NCBI GenBank assembly: GCA_934589525.1
Contig: CAKTOB010000013.1
Location: 1-64,000 of the forward strand
Direction of reading: 5' to 3'
Length of the DNA: 64,000 nt
From: an uncultured Oscillospiraceae bacterium
GTDB taxonomy: Bacteria > Bacillota > Clostridia > Oscillospirales > Oscillospiraceae
The notes beneath the pieces were generated by a model. That model did no database searches, was not told where the DNA came from, and was given only the letters and a program-made list of their open reading frames with translations. Below are positions 29,050 through 35,710 of this stretch, piece by piece (the first letter of the stretch is position 1; every line of letters starts with the position of its first letter). Position numbers and translations under genes: made by a program.

Positions 29050-29215
29050 AAAAATTGACAATTGGCTTGAGTTGACAGTTGACAGTTATTGTGGTGACGG
29101 ATGTAGCCGTTTTTGAAAAACGTTGGGAAAAACATTGACCCTCCAGCGAAACCGTAGGGAACGGCCTATGTGCCGTTCCGGGGGCGCTGCGATTATAACC
29201 CGTGCGGATGAACGG
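29045..29215. repeat. intergenic palindromic repeat array 4
   Basis: An AATTGACAATTG/GTTGACAGTTGACAG start (29054-29090), a GTGACGGATGTAGCC stretch, then a GGGAACGGCCTATGTGCCGT module (29158-29183) and the CCGTGCGGATGAACGG linker. This is the shortest of the seven arrays. Confidence 0.8.
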
Positions 29216-29230
29216 AACCACACAGCTTCA

Positions 29231-29270
29231 TAAAAAACCGACCCGCTCCCAAAATCAGGAGCGGGCCGGT
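29231..29270 (-). terminator. terminator after the GtrII/GT2 operon
   Basis: ACCGACCCGCTCC (29237-29249) pairs with 29258-29270 with one mismatch; a T-run follows on the minus strand. It is 138 bp beyond the GT2 stop. The 29271-29408 stretch holds no gene but contains a 12-bp copy (29282-29293) of the 3' end of the nucleotidyltransferase gene at 35812. Confidence 0.75.
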
Positions 29271-29408
29271 CATTGTGTACGTTTACAGGTCGCAGCACAG
29301 AAATCAAAAAAATATTCGGTAGCAATTCTGTCGAACGTAATTCTGAAGGCCTAGTCACATAGATGAAACTATGATGGGAGTAGAGGTTTATACCGAAGAA
29401 TATCGTTG

Positions 29409-30359
29409 TTAATTGTCGGTGCGCTCGCTGATAATATATCGTGGCCTGTGCTTTGTTTCCAAGTAGATTTTTCCGATATATTGGCCAATAACGCCAAGAC
29501 AAATGAGTTGGATTCCACCTAATGCACAAATAATGCATATCATACTTGCCCAGCCAGACACGACGTTTCCTTTGCAATAAGAAATTAAAGCGTACAATAT
29601 TCCTATAAAACTAATTGTAGATATTATTAATCCTAGACAAGCAATTATACTGAGCGGCTTAACACTGAGACTGGTGATGCCATCGAAAGCCAAAGAGAGC
29701 ATTTTGCTTAATGGATAATGGCTCTCGCCCGCAATTCGTTCATGTCTTTCGTAGTATACGCTTGTACTCCTGAAGCCAACGAGGGGAATCATCCCTCTTA
29801 AAAACAGGTTGACTTCCTGGAATCCAGCAAATTCATTGAGTACACGAGACGAAATCAGACGGTAATCGGCATGGTTAAATACGACCTCAGCTCCCATTGC
29901 ATTTAAGATTTTATAAAAGCTTTCTGCCGTGAACCGCTTGAAAAATGTATCTGTTTCCCGCTTGCTTCTTACACCGTATACAATCTCATATCCATTGCTA
30001 TACTGATCAATCATTTCTTCCATAGCGGAAATATCATCTTGCCCATCACAGTCAATAGAAATGGTTATATCACACTTGTTCTTAGAGTCCATCAACCCTG
30101 CCAGTACGGCGTTTTGATGACCGCGGTTCCTGCTTTGACTGATTCCAGCAAAGTGTCTGTTTTCTTTTGATAAATTGACAATAATATCCCAGGTGTTGTC
30201 CTGACTGCCATCATTTACGAATAGAATTTTGCTGTCCTGAGAAATTTTTTCTTCAGAAATCAGAAGATTTAGTTCATCAAGAAATAGAGTTGAAGTAATT
30301 GGCAATACCTTTTCCTCATTATAACAAGGAATAACAATATATAAAACCGGTTTTTTCAT
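29409..30359 (-). CDS. family 2 glycosyltransferase with two C-terminal membrane helices (GtrB/DPM-like)
   Basis: 316 residues from ATG 30359, preceded by AAGGAGA. The GT-A domain (about 1-230) starts YIVIPCYNEEKVLP and has ISIDCDGQDD (DxD-like, about 100) and an RSKRETDTFFKR loop. Two membrane helices (about 238-262 and 270-295) follow, as in bactoprenol glucosyl transferases of the GtrB type, which load a sugar from a nucleotide donor onto a lipid carrier. It lies 33 bp downstream of the GtrII-like gene. Together they would supply and transfer a sugar to a surface polymer. Codon and base use are much richer in A+T than in the flanking genes. Confidence 0.9.
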   Translation of the reverse strand: MKKPVLYIVIPCYNEEKVLPITSTLFLDELNLLISEEKISQDSKILFVNDGSQDNTWDIIVNLSKENRHFAGISQSRNRGHQNAVLAGLMDSKNKCDITISIDCDGQDDISAMEEMIDQYSNGYEIVYGVRSKRETDTFFKRFTAESFYKILNAMGAEVVFNHADYRLISSRVLNEFAGFQEVNLFLRGMIPLVGFRSTSVYYERHERIAGESHYPLSKMLSLAFDGITSLSVKPLSIIACLGLIISTISFIGILYALISYCKGNVVSGWASMICIICALGGIQLICLGVIGQYIGKIYLETKHRPRYIISERTDN

Positions 30360-30392
30360 GTTTGTCTGTCTCCTTCCCGCCAAATCCTGAAT

Positions 30393-31958
30393 TTAATCGT
30401 TAAATTTAACAATAACAATTCCATTTGCCATCTGAATACTACCTTTTTGGGGGAAACTTACCATGTTTTGTATAAAGGTGTACCCAACAGTATCATAGGC
30501 GACTGAATCATATACTACATTGATATTAGCCCTCATGATCATTTTAAAATACGAGTTGAAAACAATGGAGTAACTTATGGGTGTATTACTATCAAGACCT
30601 GTAATTGATGATAATTCTCGGAAAGCTTCAAAAGAGTTTAGATATCCATCCGGTGTACCTATAAAAGCTACTGGTGTAACACCAGGCTCATAGCCATCTA
30701 TATCTTCTATTTTATCGATTACTCGGGTCATTACTGACAGAGTTGATTCTTGCTCTGTAGACTTTTTTACATAACAAGCATTTGCCGTTTGAATATTTAG
30801 CAAGAAAAGACAGCACAGCAATATGGTTGCAAGTCGCTCTGGAAAACAGTTCCTGCTATCATGCGTGTATTTCACGGCAATACAGAAAATAAGTATGTAA
30901 AGCAACCAGTAGGAGTATGTCATGAGCATATGAACATAAGAATTCAACAATCTCATGCCATTTATGCAGAAAGGCAACAGGATAAGGAAAAGAACAAGTG
31001 TTACAACACTACCGATGGGACTCCTTTTCTTGTAGAGCGTGATTATGCCCATGAATAAACAAAAGACTCCAAGTATAATCAATAATAGATTTATAAGATG
31101 TGGTATCTGAGATGGATAAGCATAGCCGGGCATTTCTAAAAATGAAGATTTTAACTGACTCCAACAAGCAACCAGTCTGTCTTTTAATGGTTCAGCATTT
31201 GTCCATGCATTTGAAACACTATTGTAGCTATCTTGAATTAAAGGTATGCCAGTAACGGATGCTGCTACATTTAGACCGGCATAATAAACCAGACCTCCGA
31301 GGATGGCTGCACCTGCGGCGAGAAAGTCTGAAAGCCATATTTTTTTGAAAGAGTATTTTGGATAATCCAGACAACGAAGGATGGATATGATCAATACGAT
31401 TGTAATAAATGTGAAGACAAATACCTGATACACTGCCATCGAGGCAGCAACACAACATCCAATTAAAACTTCGTAACCCCAAACAGTGCTTGCCTTTACA
31501 TTGCTTCCATTAGAGGTGATTTTTTCCCAGATGTATGCCCCTAGCATGGTTAAGGCTAACGCACACATATTGCCTCCGAAATCTGGATTATATGTTGCAG
31601 CTAGGGCTGTCACTGTAACATTCGTGGTTAGGATTCCACAAACAATCGCTATATGTCTATTTTCCTTTAGTTTCAGCATTTCTACTACTAAGTAGGAAGC
31701 AAAAGTAAGCCAGACCAGTGCCATTAGGCCGTTTGTCCATGGAAAGCTGGTAAACCGTCCAAAAATTCCATCATACAATGGCTTTAAATACCGCCCTAAC
31801 TGAATCTTCCAGTTCCAATAGGTCGCATTTGAAATAGCCTCCACAAGAGAATCGTGAGATGGTTGGAAATTTGCAAATGCGTAACCGTGTGCGATAATCC
31901 CAAAAACGAATGTGTAAAGAAAGCTTTTCTTTAAGGTTTCTTTGTTGATTTTCACCAT
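30393..31958 (-). CDS. GtrII-family polytopic glucosyltransferase-like membrane protein
   Basis: 521 residues from ATG 31958; an upstream ATG at 32006 has no ribosome binding site. About ten to twelve hydrophobic segments are visible, with a HGYAFANFQPSHDSL region near the start, a GRYLKPLYDGIFGR loop after the first helix (charged, extracytoplasmic) and a C-terminal soluble part. This matches GtrII-type O-antigen glucosyltransferases that use a lipid-linked sugar. The acceptor here is probably a wall or teichoic polymer. The gene starts 67 bp from the left arm of the invertible promoter segment, so its expression is probably phase-variable. Confidence 0.85.
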   Translation of the reverse strand: MVKINKETLKKSFLYTFVFGIIAHGYAFANFQPSHDSLVEAISNATYWNWKIQLGRYLKPLYDGIFGRFTSFPWTNGLMALVWLTFASYLVVEMLKLKENRHIAIVCGILTTNVTVTALAATYNPDFGGNMCALALTMLGAYIWEKITSNGSNVKASTVWGYEVLIGCCVAASMAVYQVFVFTFITIVLIISILRCLDYPKYSFKKIWLSDFLAAGAAILGGLVYYAGLNVAASVTGIPLIQDSYNSVSNAWTNAEPLKDRLVACWSQLKSSFLEMPGYAYPSQIPHLINLLLIILGVFCLFMGIITLYKKRSPIGSVVTLVLFLILLPFCINGMRLLNSYVHMLMTYSYWLLYILIFCIAVKYTHDSRNCFPERLATILLCCLFLLNIQTANACYVKKSTEQESTLSVMTRVIDKIEDIDGYEPGVTPVAFIGTPDGYLNSFEAFRELSSITGLDSNTPISYSIVFNSYFKMIMRANINVVYDSVAYDTVGYTFIQNMVSFPQKGSIQMANGIVIVKFND

Positions 31959-32024
31959 GTTTGTGACCAGCCCTTTCGTCTGCACGTTCCGGCCGGGCGT
32001 TATCATGTTTTTCTGTGTCTGAAA

Positions 32025-32131
32025 GTAGACTTTTTGAAACGCAAATGATATAATAAAAAAATATATACATCATGCACCAAGGTTGGTTGTAAGATGTTTT
32101 TCTCTGTTGTTGAACGTTTCAAAAAGTCTAC
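32025..32131. promoter_or_regulatory. putative invertible promoter segment (phase switch)
   Basis: GTAGACTTTTTGAAACG (32025-32041) and its exact inverse (32115-32131) enclose 73 bp. In the present orientation a TATAAT (32049-32054) lies 17 bp after TAGACT (32026-32031, in the left arm) on the + strand, pointing away from the GtrII operon. Inversion would put the same -10 on the minus strand, still paired with TAGACT in the other arm, facing GtrII. The invertase gene ends inside the right arm. The mechanism is inferred; inversion has not been observed here. Confidence 0.75.
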
Positions 32132-32733
32132 ATCTCGATACACTTTTTTGCGTCATATATCATTTTTCTATAGAATGTGGTATGTGCCATCCCAAGAATA
32201 CGCGCAGCCTGTCGAGTGGAAATTAGCCCCAGTTTGCATTTTGTACATATTTCATTGAATCCATCCGGTACTTGGATTGGAGGGCGACCAAATCGTATTC
32301 CATTTTGCTTTGCGGCAAGAATTCCCTCTGCCTGACGCTGACGAATGAAATCTCGCTCTGTCTGGGCAACGTAGGACAGAAGCTGCAAAACAATGTTTGC
32401 AATGAGCGTTCCTGTTAAATCGCGGCTTTGCCGAGTATCCAGCAGTGGCATGTCAAGGACCACAATGGCGGCCTGTTTTTCTTTTATGATGATTTGCCAC
32501 TGTTCCAGAATATCATTATAATTTCGTCCCAACCTATCAATGCTCTTCACCACAAGAGTATCACCATTCCTTAATTTTTGGACCAGTTTCTTGTAATTTT
32601 TTCGATTGAAGTCCTTGCCGGATTGCTTGTCCACATAGATTCTGTCAACGCTGATTCCAAATGCTTGTATTGCGATTAGTTGCCGTTGTTCATTTTGCTC
32701 TTTGGTGGAAACTCTGATATATCCGTATTCCAT
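32128..32733 (-). CDS. serine recombinase, DNA invertase-like
   Basis: 201 residues from ATG 32733, with GGAGG 8 nt upstream. The resolvase domain has YGYIRVSTKEQNEQRQ (nucleophile Ser near 9), a VKSIDRLGRNYNDI motif (about 65) and VAQTERDFIRQRQAEGI in the long helix. The C-terminal helix-turn-helix (about 160-195) reads ISTRQAARILGMAHTTFYRK, as in Hin/Gin/Pin-type invertases. Its stop codon TAG lies in the right arm of the 17-bp inverted repeat, so gene and site form one unit. It most likely flips the 73-bp promoter segment. The gene is A+T-rich like the island. Confidence 0.92.
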   Translation of the reverse strand: MEYGYIRVSTKEQNEQRQLIAIQAFGISVDRIYVDKQSGKDFNRKNYKKLVQKLRNGDTLVVKSIDRLGRNYNDILEQWQIIIKEKQAAIVVLDMPLLDTRQSRDLTGTLIANIVLQLLSYVAQTERDFIRQRQAEGILAAKQNGIRFGRPPIQVPDGFNEICTKCKLGLISTRQAARILGMAHTTFYRKMIYDAKKCIEM

Positions 32734-32825
32734 GAAGTAAACCTCCAATATTAATTGTTAGAGAATATTAAATACGAGAAAACACCTTATTATATATTCT
32801 GACACAGAAGGTCTAAAATTAGATG

Positions 32826-32914
32826 TGAGATTTTAATGGCACACAGTAGCCTATTGCAAAATAATAATTTGATGGTATTATAGTAGTTGTTGGTATATCT
32901 ATTTTAAAATCTCA
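32826..32914. repeat. 11-bp inverted repeats around a promoter, upstream of the TagB/F-like gene
   Basis: TGAGATTTTAA (32826-32836) and TTAAAATCTCA (32904-32914) enclose 67 bp. Inside, TTGCAA (32854-32859), 16 bp, then TATTAT (32876-32881) form a + strand promoter facing the gene at 32954. The arms are shorter than, and unrelated to, the 17-bp pair, so chance in AT-rich DNA is possible. Confidence 0.4.
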
Positions 32915-32953
32915 TGTTTTATTACACGAAAATAGTTTTAGAAAAAGGAGTCT

Positions 32954-34168
32954 ATGGGGTTGAAGATGTTTCAAAAAATCAAGAAAAAAATCAAGTCTGT
33001 ATGGGTCAAGCGAGAGCTGCTGAAGGGAAAACGTAAAATCAGGGTGGGTTTTGTCCTTCAGGTTCCGGCCCTGTGGGATAAGTTAAATGCGGTGTATGAA
33101 TCACTTGAGAGAGCCCCTTCTTTTGAAGTGATTCCTATTGTTATCCCTCCCTATAACTGGCAAATGGAGAAGTTTGATGAGTTGTGTGAAGATAATTTGT
33201 TTATACGGCTATTTCCAAATTGTGTGTACGCCCTTCAAGATGATGGAAATGTAATTGATATCTCAACACTCTGCTTAGATTACATTTTTTATCAAAGGCC
33301 CTACGACGTCTATATGCCATCAGGACTAAAATCCTGTGATGTTGCAAATTATGCAAAAGTGTGCTATGTTCCTTATGGATACAGTATGCTGAAAAAGTAT
33401 TCTGATTTCAATACCAATGATGAGTTTTTTCGGAATGTATATTTTGCTTTTCTGGATTGCAAGGAGAATCTTGAAATTTTGAGTAAACAATATTCACTTA
33501 GCATTCAGCAGGGGAAGCAGCATTTTGTGTTGACAGATTACCCAGAATTTGATAATTATCGAAGAACAGAACCGTTGGAAAATGCTCATCAAAAACCATT
33601 TCGAATTTTATGGACCCCACGTTGGACGTACGATTCGATATTAGGTGGTAGTCACTTTTTTGAATATAAGGATCCACTTGTAGAATTTGCCAATAGAAAC
33701 CCGTCCCTGCAGATTACTATACGGCCTCATCCTATGATGTTTGAAAACTTTCTGAAAGAGGGAAGAATGAGCAAGGAAGATTTTACTGGGTTTAAGAACA
33801 AACTACAGGAAAATGGTATTATATTAAGTGAGACTGCAGAGTTAAAGGATGATTTGCTGAATGCGGATATTTTGATAACAGATTACTCTACAATTATTGC
33901 GCCGTACCTGCTGACGGGTAATCCGATTATCTACTGTGATGAACTTGATGATGAACCTTTCAATCACACTGAGATGCTTTTTGATTCGCTATATCGCTGT
34001 ACGAATTGGAATGCAATTGAGGAGCGATTGTGTAGTTTGCTGAATGGTGAAGATGAAAGGAAGCCTTTACGCATGGAGGCTGCTAAAACGCTTGGAAACG
34101 GAAATGCTGCACAAGGGATTAGAGATATGCTTTTTGAAGACTATATCGCTCGAGCGTCTGTTGAGTGA
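32954..34168 (+). CDS. CDP-glycerol glycerophosphotransferase-like protein (TagB/TagF family)
   Basis: 404 residues; AAAGGAG precedes ATG 32954. A basic amphipathic start (KIKKKIKSVWVKRELLKGK) suits membrane association. The C-terminal half has family hallmarks: ILWTPRWTYD (about 220), ITIRPHPMMFEN (about 255) with its catalytic His, and ADILITDYSTIIAPYLLTG (about 310). Such enzymes transfer glycerol phosphate (or another CDP-linked alditol) to a teichoic-type chain. TagD, which makes CDP-glycerol, is encoded 27 bp downstream, supporting this substrate. At about 400 residues it resembles TagB-like primases more than long polymerases. Confidence 0.85.
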   Translation: MGLKMFQKIKKKIKSVWVKRELLKGKRKIRVGFVLQVPALWDKLNAVYESLERAPSFEVIPIVIPPYNWQMEKFDELCEDNLFIRLFPNCVYALQDDGNVIDISTLCLDYIFYQRPYDVYMPSGLKSCDVANYAKVCYVPYGYSMLKKYSDFNTNDEFFRNVYFAFLDCKENLEILSKQYSLSIQQGKQHFVLTDYPEFDNYRRTEPLENAHQKPFRILWTPRWTYDSILGGSHFFEYKDPLVEFANRNPSLQITIRPHPMMFENFLKEGRMSKEDFTGFKNKLQENGIILSETAELKDDLLNADILITDYSTIIAPYLLTGNPIIYCDELDDEPFNHTEMLFDSLYRCTNWNAIEERLCSLLNGEDERKPLRMEAAKTLGNGNAAQGIRDMLFEDYIARASVE

Positions 34169-34195
34169 ATAGATTGTGTTAAAGAAGGTGCTGAT

Positions 34196-34645
34196 GTGAT
34201 CATTGGATATACTACGGGTGTTTTTGACTTATTCCATATTGGACATCTAAATATGCTGAAAAATGCAAGAGGACTCTGTGACAAGTTGGTTGTTGGTGTT
34301 ACTGTTGATGAACTTGTTCAATACAAGGGAAAACGGGCACTGATACCTTTTGAAGACCGAATCGAGATTGTTCGTTCATGCAAATATGTCGATGCAGCAA
34401 TCCCGCAGTATGATATGGACAAGCTTTCGGTATGCAAGAAACTGGGAGCTTCCTATCTCTTCGTGGGCGATGACTGGTATGGTACTACAAAATGGAAAAG
34501 CTATGAAGAAGAGCTTGAAAAAGAAGGAATTAAGGTTGTTTATTTCCCATATACCAAGGGAGTATCTTCTACATTGATTAATGCTGCGTTGGATCAAGTG
34601 AGAGACAATCCCAAAACAGCAATCAAAAAACAAACCATAAAGTAA
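34196..34645 (+). CDS. tagD: glycerol-3-phosphate cytidylyltransferase
   Basis: 149 residues; GTG 34196 follows AAGAAGG. It has the nucleotidyl-transfer motif GVFDLFHIGHLNMLKNA (HxGH near residue 18), a VGDDWYGTTKW substrate loop (about 100), and the late YTKGVSSTLI motif equivalent to the RTxGISTT signature. It makes CDP-glycerol from CTP and glycerol 3-phosphate in the cytoplasm for the TagB/F-like enzyme encoded just upstream. It is slightly longer than typical TagD (about 130 residues), with a basic tail. Confidence 0.94.
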   Translation: MIIGYTTGVFDLFHIGHLNMLKNARGLCDKLVVGVTVDELVQYKGKRALIPFEDRIEIVRSCKYVDAAIPQYDMDKLSVCKKLGASYLFVGDDWYGTTKWKSYEEELEKEGIKVVYFPYTKGVSSTLINAALDQVRDNPKTAIKKQTIK

Positions 34646-34675
34646 ACAAATTGTTTGAAAGTAAGGAAATACTAA

Positions 34676-35710
34676 ATGATTGATAAAAACTTCTGTATGA
34701 GTTCATATATGGCTTTTCGATATATAGAAGATGATAATATGGACTTTTTTCCAAATCTTAGGCACAATAACATAAGGCCAATAGCGGTGGAAAATCGCAT
34801 CCCTGTAAAAACAGCGGATGATATCGATCACGAAATATCGAAACAAATGGAGATGTTTTGTAATCTAAAAAAGGGAATCCTTTTGTCGGGAGGAATGGAC
34901 TCGGCGATTGTTGCCTCCTATCTAAGAGGAGCAGATGCGTATACTTTTCGTTTTTTGGGAGGTGAATACCAAAAAGAAGAACTGTCCAGAGCTGAATACT
35001 ATGCGAGTTGCTATGATCTTAATCTGCACTATGTTGATATCAATTGGGAAACCGTGGAAAAATACCTTGAACCGCTGATAAGAGCGAAGTGTGCACCGGT
35101 GCATTCTATTGAGCCTCAGATTCTACAGGCTGCACTGCAAGCAAAAGCAGACGGAATAGAGCTGATATTTGTTGGAGAGAGCAGTGACCTGATTTTTGGC
35201 GGCATGGATGGATTGTTGGCAAAAGATTGGAGCTATGAAGAGTTCGTTGATCGATACATGTTTACAAAGCCGGAGAAAGTTTTAAAGAATCCTGTAGATA
35301 TGCGGTATTTGTTTGAGCGCTACCGTAAAGGAGATAAAATAGACTTTCTGTCTTTTATGGACGACGTTTTTTCTATTGAGTCTTCAAGCTCCTATATGAA
35401 TGCGTTCTCAGTTGCGGGTATGCCCTACTATGATCCATATGCAAAACTAATGATGGCTGATAAACTTGACCTTTATAGGGTTCGCCATGGTGAGCCCAAA
35501 TATTTGATTCGTCAGTTGATGGCTAAGAAATACCCTGATATTCCTGTTCCAAACAAAGTAGCCATGCCAAGACCTGTGGATGCGTATTTTAGGAACTGGG
35601 AAGGGCCTAAGCGTAGCGAATTTAGGAATGACATAGAAATGTCAGAATACACCGGAAACCAGAAATGGCAGATGTTCTGTCTGGAGAAATTCCTAGATTG
35701 CTTTGACTGA
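34676..35710 (+). CDS. asparagine-synthetase-like PP-loop protein without amidotransferase domain
   Basis: 344 residues; ATG lies near 34676 after AAGGAAAT. A PP-loop motif KGILLSGGMDSAIVASYL (about 65-80) and the GESSDLIFGGMDGLL region (about 165) identify the synthetase half of the asparagine synthase family. The N-terminal glutaminase with its Cys2 is absent, replaced by about 60 unrelated residues. It would adenylate a carboxylate and join it to ammonia or an amine. In a teichoic-like operon it may decorate the polymer or its precursor; that is inference. Last gene of the operon. Confidence 0.75.
   Translation: MIDKNFCMSSYMAFRYIEDDNMDFFPNLRHNNIRPIAVENRIPVKTADDIDHEISKQMEMFCNLKKGILLSGGMDSAIVASYLRGADAYTFRFLGGEYQKEELSRAEYYASCYDLNLHYVDINWETVEKYLEPLIRAKCAPVHSIEPQILQAALQAKADGIELIFVGESSDLIFGGMDGLLAKDWSYEEFVDRYMFTKPEKVLKNPVDMRYLFERYRKGDKIDFLSFMDDVFSIESSSSYMNAFSVAGMPYYDPYAKLMMADKLDLYRVRHGEPKYLIRQLMAKKYPDIPVPNKVAMPRPVDAYFRNWEGPKRSEFRNDIEMSEYTGNQKWQMFCLEKFLDCFD

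Follow-up and report, generated by a model that had tools for sequence, protein, structure and literature searches.

A probable self-contained phase switch made of a serine recombinase gene and an invertible promoter beside a glycosylation operon in an Oscillospiraceae bacterium

The locus described here raises the question of whether a small serine recombinase gene, which ends within one arm of a short inverted repeat, could switch a glycosylation operon that begins beyond the other arm. It lies in the window, by which we mean the whole analysed stretch of 64,000 nt from an uncultured Oscillospiraceae bacterium (contig CAKTOB010000013.1). The two sites, a promoter match between them and the order of the genes were observed directly. 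We consider it highly likely that the locus is a self-contained phase switch, in which the recombinase inverts a promoter governing the GtrII-GT2 glycosylation operon. Judged from the sequence, the segment between the arms is very probably an invertible promoter that was caught in the OFF position and that would be flipped by the adjacent recombinase.

The left perfect arm, GTAGACTTTTTGAAACG (32025-32041), is found again as its exact reverse complement at 32115-32131, and the two 17-bp arms enclose 73 bp, as the original prediction had stated. A repeat search extended the arms to 28 nt (32014-32041 and 32115-32142) with a complementarity of 82%. Sites of serine recombinases have a dyad layout and are cut at a central dinucleotide. 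Both the left (32014-32041) and the right (32115-32142) recombination sites of the window are 28-bp imperfect dyads centred on GT-AG-AC, and because of the dyad symmetry the site centre can be placed at AG, which corresponds to 32027-32028 in the left site. The core GTNNAC of the left site is common to the sites of relatives. The putative invertible segment extends from 32029 to 32127, between the central dinucleotides, and comprises the 73 bp plus the inner half-sites; inversion was seen only in related loci. The inverted repeats flanking this short intergenic segment exceed chance in the window: an arm with at most three mismatches occurs at only two places in 64 kb (shuffle mean 0.14, with one shuffle reaching 2), and the inverted-repeat score is higher than in 40 of 40 shuffles of the window's own flank. 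The exact 17-mer is also present in six stretches of IMG/VR, with one match in each. A close copy of the window locus was not found in eight genomes of a near genus, the best match being 56%. An empty-site comparison with eight genomes was dropped, as the two flanking genes have only moderate relatives (43-56%).

The recombinase gene (32128-32733, minus strand) encodes a putative invertase of 201 aa, counted from the ATG, with a PF00239 match of 103.9 bits. As anticipated, the gene ends in the right arm: its TAG stop occupies positions 32130-32128, and the right site overlaps the final codons and the stop. The putative central dinucleotide of the right site falls within this stop codon, and inversion would keep the stop unchanged because GTAGAC is common to both sites. 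In an alignment of 15 recombinases including that of the window, R7, S9, R67 and R70, which we take to be the catalytic residues, are among the invariant columns. The match of the C-terminal region to HTH_50 (20.9 bits) is under the cut-off of 27. The protein itself is also encoded on 23 contigs and a 99% relative on a further one, and its family occurs in 129 of 400 sampled genomes of one bacterial family (E <= 1e-50; recombinases were counted without regard to the repeat). The label 'Hin/Pin-type' used in the original prediction turned out to be loose, because the best solved match is Bin3/Sin with 100.6 bits, compared with 63 and 61.7 bits for the DNA-invertase entries 4m6f and 3uj3, which are presumably structures of Gin. 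Indeed, Bin3/Sin and the Tn3/gamma-delta resolvases are the top solved proteins, and the related locus L054 adjoins an IS605-type TnpB gene, as might be expected if the enzyme were a resolvase or a mobile-element enzyme that has its target elsewhere and lies beside an unrelated repeat. However, the repeat with the common core motif is located at the 3' end of the recombinase gene in many relatives, and a distance of about 100 bp between two dyads is suitable for an invertase. We therefore regard a resolvase with a distant target as very improbable.

The promoter match within the segment (32026-32054, plus strand) consists of the -35 hexamer TAGACT at 32026-32031, a spacer of 17 bp, the TG of an extended -10 at 32046-32047 and the -10 hexamer TATAAT at 32049-32054. 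It is directed away from the operon and antisense into the recombinase gene, and thus has the parts and the direction that had been proposed for it. The match agrees with the consensus at 10 of 12 positions plus the TG, and shuffles of the segment equal its score in 3 of 50 cases (p 0.06, not significant alone). Moreover, promoter-like matches are frequent nearby, with 9 in 1.2 kb where 3.0 are expected. In the orientation read, the predicted start is near 32061 on the plus strand, and the transcript would enter the recombinase gene in antisense from 32128. After inversion, the -10 hexamer would be located at 32107-32102 and transcription would start near 32095 on the minus strand, so that GtrII would have a leader of about 137 nt. 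Because the -35 hexamer sits in the repeat, a flip would rebuild the promoter unchanged. In this respect the switch had rightly been called symmetric, but it has one promoter only, which is antisense to the recombinase gene when the operon is OFF. The claim that the operon was caught OFF holds in so far as the promoter faces away from it, but a strict OFF state does not follow, since the recombinase promoter could read through. The candidate for the latter is TTTAGA-17-TATAAT at 32789-32817 on the minus strand, which is a consensus match only. A scan of 31900-33100 revealed no terminator-like site on the minus strand. As none precedes the operon, the OFF state may leak by read-through from the recombinase promoter in either orientation.

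The repeat could also serve as an operator or as a transcript hairpin, that is an attenuator, which would govern the recombinase gene and the operon without any inversion. The RNA of the repeat does fold into a strong stem (-37.8 kcal/mol, z -6.25). However, any inverted repeat yields such a stem trivially, which makes the fold uninformative, and the loop would be long. Moreover, the terminator scan was negative at the repeat and relatives are inverted at the homologous position, so that regulation by an operator or attenuator is scarcely credible. Since the promoter of the window is by itself a weak argument (p 0.06), the case for an invertible promoter rests on the relatives.

Related loci were found with the alignment of 15 recombinases, which yielded at least 80 loci from species genomes and the best 80 of 132 from viral contigs, and further loci were added by whole-genome searches. 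An inverted repeat with a paired GTNNAC-like core is present in the 3' flank of the recombinase gene in 43 of 150 distinct loci, compared with 0 of 900 control stretches (score >=10); at a score of 9, the same criterion gave 46 loci and 4 control stretches. In a larger set of loci that was searched over a wider range, the respective figures were 48/177 and 1/700. If any inverted repeat in the 3' flank with a score of >=12 is counted, 43 of 156 loci are positive in comparison to 7 of 780 controls. The window is counted within each of the three locus sets (150, 156 and 177), the 900 controls were drawn at random from the loci themselves, and in the sets of 150 and 177 any near-identical loci were combined into one. 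Loci with a short 3' flank were left out, 330 bp being needed for the 150- and 156-locus counts and 260 bp for the 177-locus count. The 43 and 48 positives overlap and share descent. The paired-core repeat was not found in 129 of the 177 loci; the criterion also misses L257, L259, L260 and L262, in which inversion is proven, as at least one of the two cores in each departs from the pattern. Furthermore, the inverted repeats of L006, L016, L026, L034, L068 and L070, which have an unconvincing core or a long spacing, may be due to chance; L034 and L068 were kept in the 43/150 count and in the analysis of the promoters of 43 segments.

In 45 of the 48 positive loci the arms are spaced by 58-126 bp, and the commonest cores are GTGTAC (14), GTATAC (7) and GTAGAC (6). 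In the loci with the core GTATAC (7/48), the putative central dinucleotide AT is palindromic and should not fix the orientation. The 43 segments have a mean best promoter score of 10.05 versus 7.84 after shuffling. A strong promoter is aimed at the recombinase gene in 25 of them and at the next gene in 7, and the remaining 11 carry only weak or tied promoter matches. The binomial p of 0.0021 for 25/32 is too optimistic because the positive loci share descent. In 38 of the 43 loci, the recombinase gene and the first gene past the second arm have the same direction. The 3' flanks of L113 and L124 contain, by eye, three GTNNAC-type sites in series, which perhaps delimit two adjacent invertible promoters; counts of one segment per locus simplify these cases. 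L001 and L027 have a different inverted repeat in common, GATTTATCACTAT, which is located upstream of the recombinase gene at about -750 and -820 from the recombinase stop, respectively, with a spacing of 62-65 bp.

Inversion was observed in four orthologous loci (L257, L259, L260 and L262), in which the inner segment lies in opposite orientations, two and two. The recombinases of these loci are 66-68% identical to that of the window. Between L259 (genome G259) and L260 (G297), the inner 103 bp are inverted and identical at 100 of 103 positions, with 3 mismatches; the segments score 191 when compared inverted and 12 when compared directly, the null maximum being 24. The flanks are collinear, with 92.9% identity in the recombinase gene and 92.5% in the downstream 200 bp. 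L262 (G213) is oriented as L259, and the more distant L257 (G161) as L260. The respective contigs in G297 and G213 measure 3.16 and 3.22 Mb, and the arms 11 bp by eye; arms of this length are too short to mislead an assembler, which makes an assembly error unlikely in contigs of such size. The window PheT is up to 79% identical to that of genomes of the G004 family, and because of this identity the window can probably be placed in the family that harbours the four orthologous loci. As far as sequence comparison goes, these loci settle the matter of inversion for the family. Further support comes from a Flavonifractor pair with recombinases that are 94% identical (L071 and L072; segment scores of 90 inverted and 16 direct, null maximum 23). 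Among the best 30 pairs, the segments of L029 and L047 score 43 inverted and 14 direct (null maximum 25), and the values for L054/L140 (33, 23 and 27) and L023/L027 (29, 16 and 28) are too weak to count. Some pairs have a single orientation in common, such as L155/L177 (direct 59, inverted 22) and L001/L137. Thus, both orientations, which according to the original prediction should be sought in related genomes, were found in the orthologous loci and in the Flavonifractor pair, and the proposal that the adjacent recombinase acts on an invertible promoter is supported by these loci and by the recurrence of the repeats at the 3' ends of related recombinase genes.

By analogy, the window's own copy would flip, its own recombinase would do so and the promoter would be active. 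The switch might instead be frozen, with sites and promoter persisting as relics, no inversion in the species and the operon either locked OFF or transcribed by read-through from the recombinase promoter. The candidate recombinase promoter at 32817-32789 and the lack of a terminator-like site ahead of the operon would fit such a state. However, the 17-bp arms match perfectly, whereas relaxed sites should drift, the recombinase has an intact ORF in which the expected residues are conserved, and the orthologous loci flip. A frozen switch is therefore unlikely, and a functional invertible promoter remains the preferred reading.

The operon that would be controlled begins with a GtrII-like glucosyltransferase gene (30393-31958, minus strand; PF14264, 87.4 bits). 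Its longest ORF spans 30393-32006, with an alternative ATG at 32006; a start at 31958, which is M17 of this ORF and 67 bp from the left arm, is likelier. The second gene (29409-30359, minus strand; PF00535) encodes a PgfS/GtrB-like GT2 glycosyltransferase, for which the ATG at residue 9 of the longest ORF (29409-30383) was chosen as the start. The operon and its distance from the arm thus agree with the original prediction, provided that the chosen start at 31958 is used. Judged by these domain matches, the pair of a GtrII-type glucosyltransferase and a GtrB-like GT2 protein known from three-component Gtr glycosylation is present in the window. A GtrA-type flippase is absent among nine neighbourhood proteins in a Pfam scan and may be encoded elsewhere. 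The GT2 protein matches the NCBIfam model PgfS with 227.5 bits, which is below the cut-off of 500, and the 'polymer glycosylation' of the original prediction is left without support by this PgfS-like but sub-threshold match. A surface protein could be the acceptor, as could a glycerol-phosphate-type polymer produced by neighbouring genes. Divergent genes beyond the recombinase gene, from 32954 onwards, encode CDP-glycerol glycerophosphotransferase-like, cytidylyltransferase and asparagine-synthase-like proteins. The switch, the Gtr operon and these glycerol-phosphate-type polymer genes lie in a low-GC island (29100-35700) within DNA of about 58-60% GC; the five listed ORFs between about 29.1 and 35.7 kb have 39-43% GC, and the nearest ORFs on each side 55-62%. 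Relatives of GtrII were found in 25 of 300 genomes of the family, every match being at most 32% identical. No recombinase ORF of >=90 aa was detected in 27 stretches around GtrII matches (flanks <=1.5 kb); in G078 both genes are present, but other ORFs and a distance of about 5 kb separate them. Among 80 genome loci, none has a GtrII operon as cargo, and over these loci and the 27 stretches GtrII cargo was seen in the window only.

According to the proposed mechanism, the serine recombinase would bind the two 28-bp sites, cut at AG within GT-AG-AC and invert the approximately 100 bp between the sites. The segment would carry a single extended -10 promoter, the -35 hexamer of which is part of the repeat. 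In the sequenced orientation, the promoter would fire at and antisense into the recombinase gene, and the GtrII-GT2 operon would be OFF. Inversion would turn glycosylation of a surface molecule ON, because transcription would then begin about 137 nt ahead of GtrII.

The genes beyond the switch differ among the related loci. At least one downstream gene was subjected to a Pfam scan in 38 of 43 loci (L013, L034, L044, L138 and L140 were left out). Surface-type cargo includes BspA-type leucine-rich repeats (L065, L131), Listeria-Bacteroides repeats (L027), a laminin-G domain (L074, second gene) and a cohesin domain (L146). Other loci carry flagellin (L067), nonribosomal peptide synthetase domains (L028, L160) or polymer genes (L029, L047, second genes), and metabolic, transport or regulatory genes were identified in L005, L068, L076, L080 and L181. 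The cargo also comprises the IS605-type TnpB (L054) and several proteins without a Pfam match. In the four orthologous loci, a treble-clef zinc-finger protein (L285) is followed by large surface proteins, with S-layer homology domains in G297. In Flavonifractor, the first gene past the switch of L071 (8770-9219) encodes a CsrA-like regulator, and a flagellin gene (L072, 10654-12429) is located near the orthologous switch. Moreover, restriction systems lie behind the switch in three loci: an HKD and Snf2 helicase with a type IIG enzyme (L058), a type II methyltransferase with a weak type IIG match (L061) and a type II methylase-endonuclease pair (L066), which suggests phase-variable defence. 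Eight recombinases that are 78-86% mutually identical (L058, L061, L064, L065, L066, L074, L076 and L080) precede mostly different cargo, suggesting an exchangeable module. As a tentative extension, which we think rather doubtful, the locus could represent a widespread plug-in switch of Clostridia, with the invertible promoter attached to the recombinase gene's own 3' end and with interchangeable cargo, in which antisense RNA made in the OFF state lowers recombinase levels, stabilises OFF and thus feeds back on the flipping rate. If this were true, the 25 OFF to 7 ON positions of strong promoters in assemblies would be a trace of the antisense feedback.

As a mechanism of phase variation, promoter inversion is known best from gut Bacteroidales, and fewer cases have been reported in the Firmicutes, as far as can be seen from two studies of invertible regions (PMC11892184; PMC8748976). 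A compact cassette of recombinase and promoter could explain the heterogeneity of surfaces and restriction systems in commensals that are difficult to culture, and it provides a motif that can be searched for in existing metagenome reads. In the window, the switch would make surface glycosylation a stochastic ON/OFF trait, with possible relevance to phage adsorption and immune recognition. The new aspect appears to be the use of a serine recombinase for such a switch in Clostridia, together with the variety of the cargo (adhesins, flagellin, restriction systems and polymers elsewhere, a Gtr operon here); no description of this version was found in a literature search that covered few subscription papers, and an earlier report may exist.

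Among known systems, Hin, Gin and Pin are serine recombinases that act on two dyad sites of about 26 bp in inverted orientation and thereby invert a promoter. Hin sits within its own segment and needs a Fis enhancer. The window recombinase is 33% identical to phage proteins annotated as Pin. Mpi of Bacteroides fragilis is a serine invertase that flips many and distant promoters of surface polysaccharides. The window differs from this system because its recombinase scores 56.6 bits with the Mpi model (NCBIfam PRK13413; cut-off 272) and its sites adjoin the gene. PgfS/Gtr-type surface glycosylation shares with the window the pair of a GT2 protein and a multi-pass glucosyltransferase; it differs in that the PgfS match of the window is below the cut-off and no flippase is found among the scanned neighbours. 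Glycosyltransferase operons of Salmonella have been predicted to be under epigenetic phase variation, as outlined in a 2025 review (PMC11868660). For the gut invertons of hCom2, the most significant link given is that of the Clostridia inverton group 139 with a tyrosine-type enzyme (Jin et al. 2025, PMC11892184). These invertons resemble the window in being short segments between inverted repeats with a recombinase nearby and surface genes, but the enzyme is of the tyrosine type, and the word 'serine' does not occur in the main text of that study. The closest layout is that of Bacteroidales ICEs (Yan et al. 2022, PMC8748976), where invertible regions directly follow an invertase gene and are themselves followed by genes for glycan synthesis or resistance. 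These elements belong to another host group, and the main text of that study does not name the enzyme class as 'serine'. However, as in the window, the invertible region is located directly 3' of the invertase gene and the cargo varies between elements. Thus, the layout of an invertible promoter next to its invertase gene is already known in Bacteroidales, and it is the spread and the modular cargo of the serine-recombinase switch that deserve attention.
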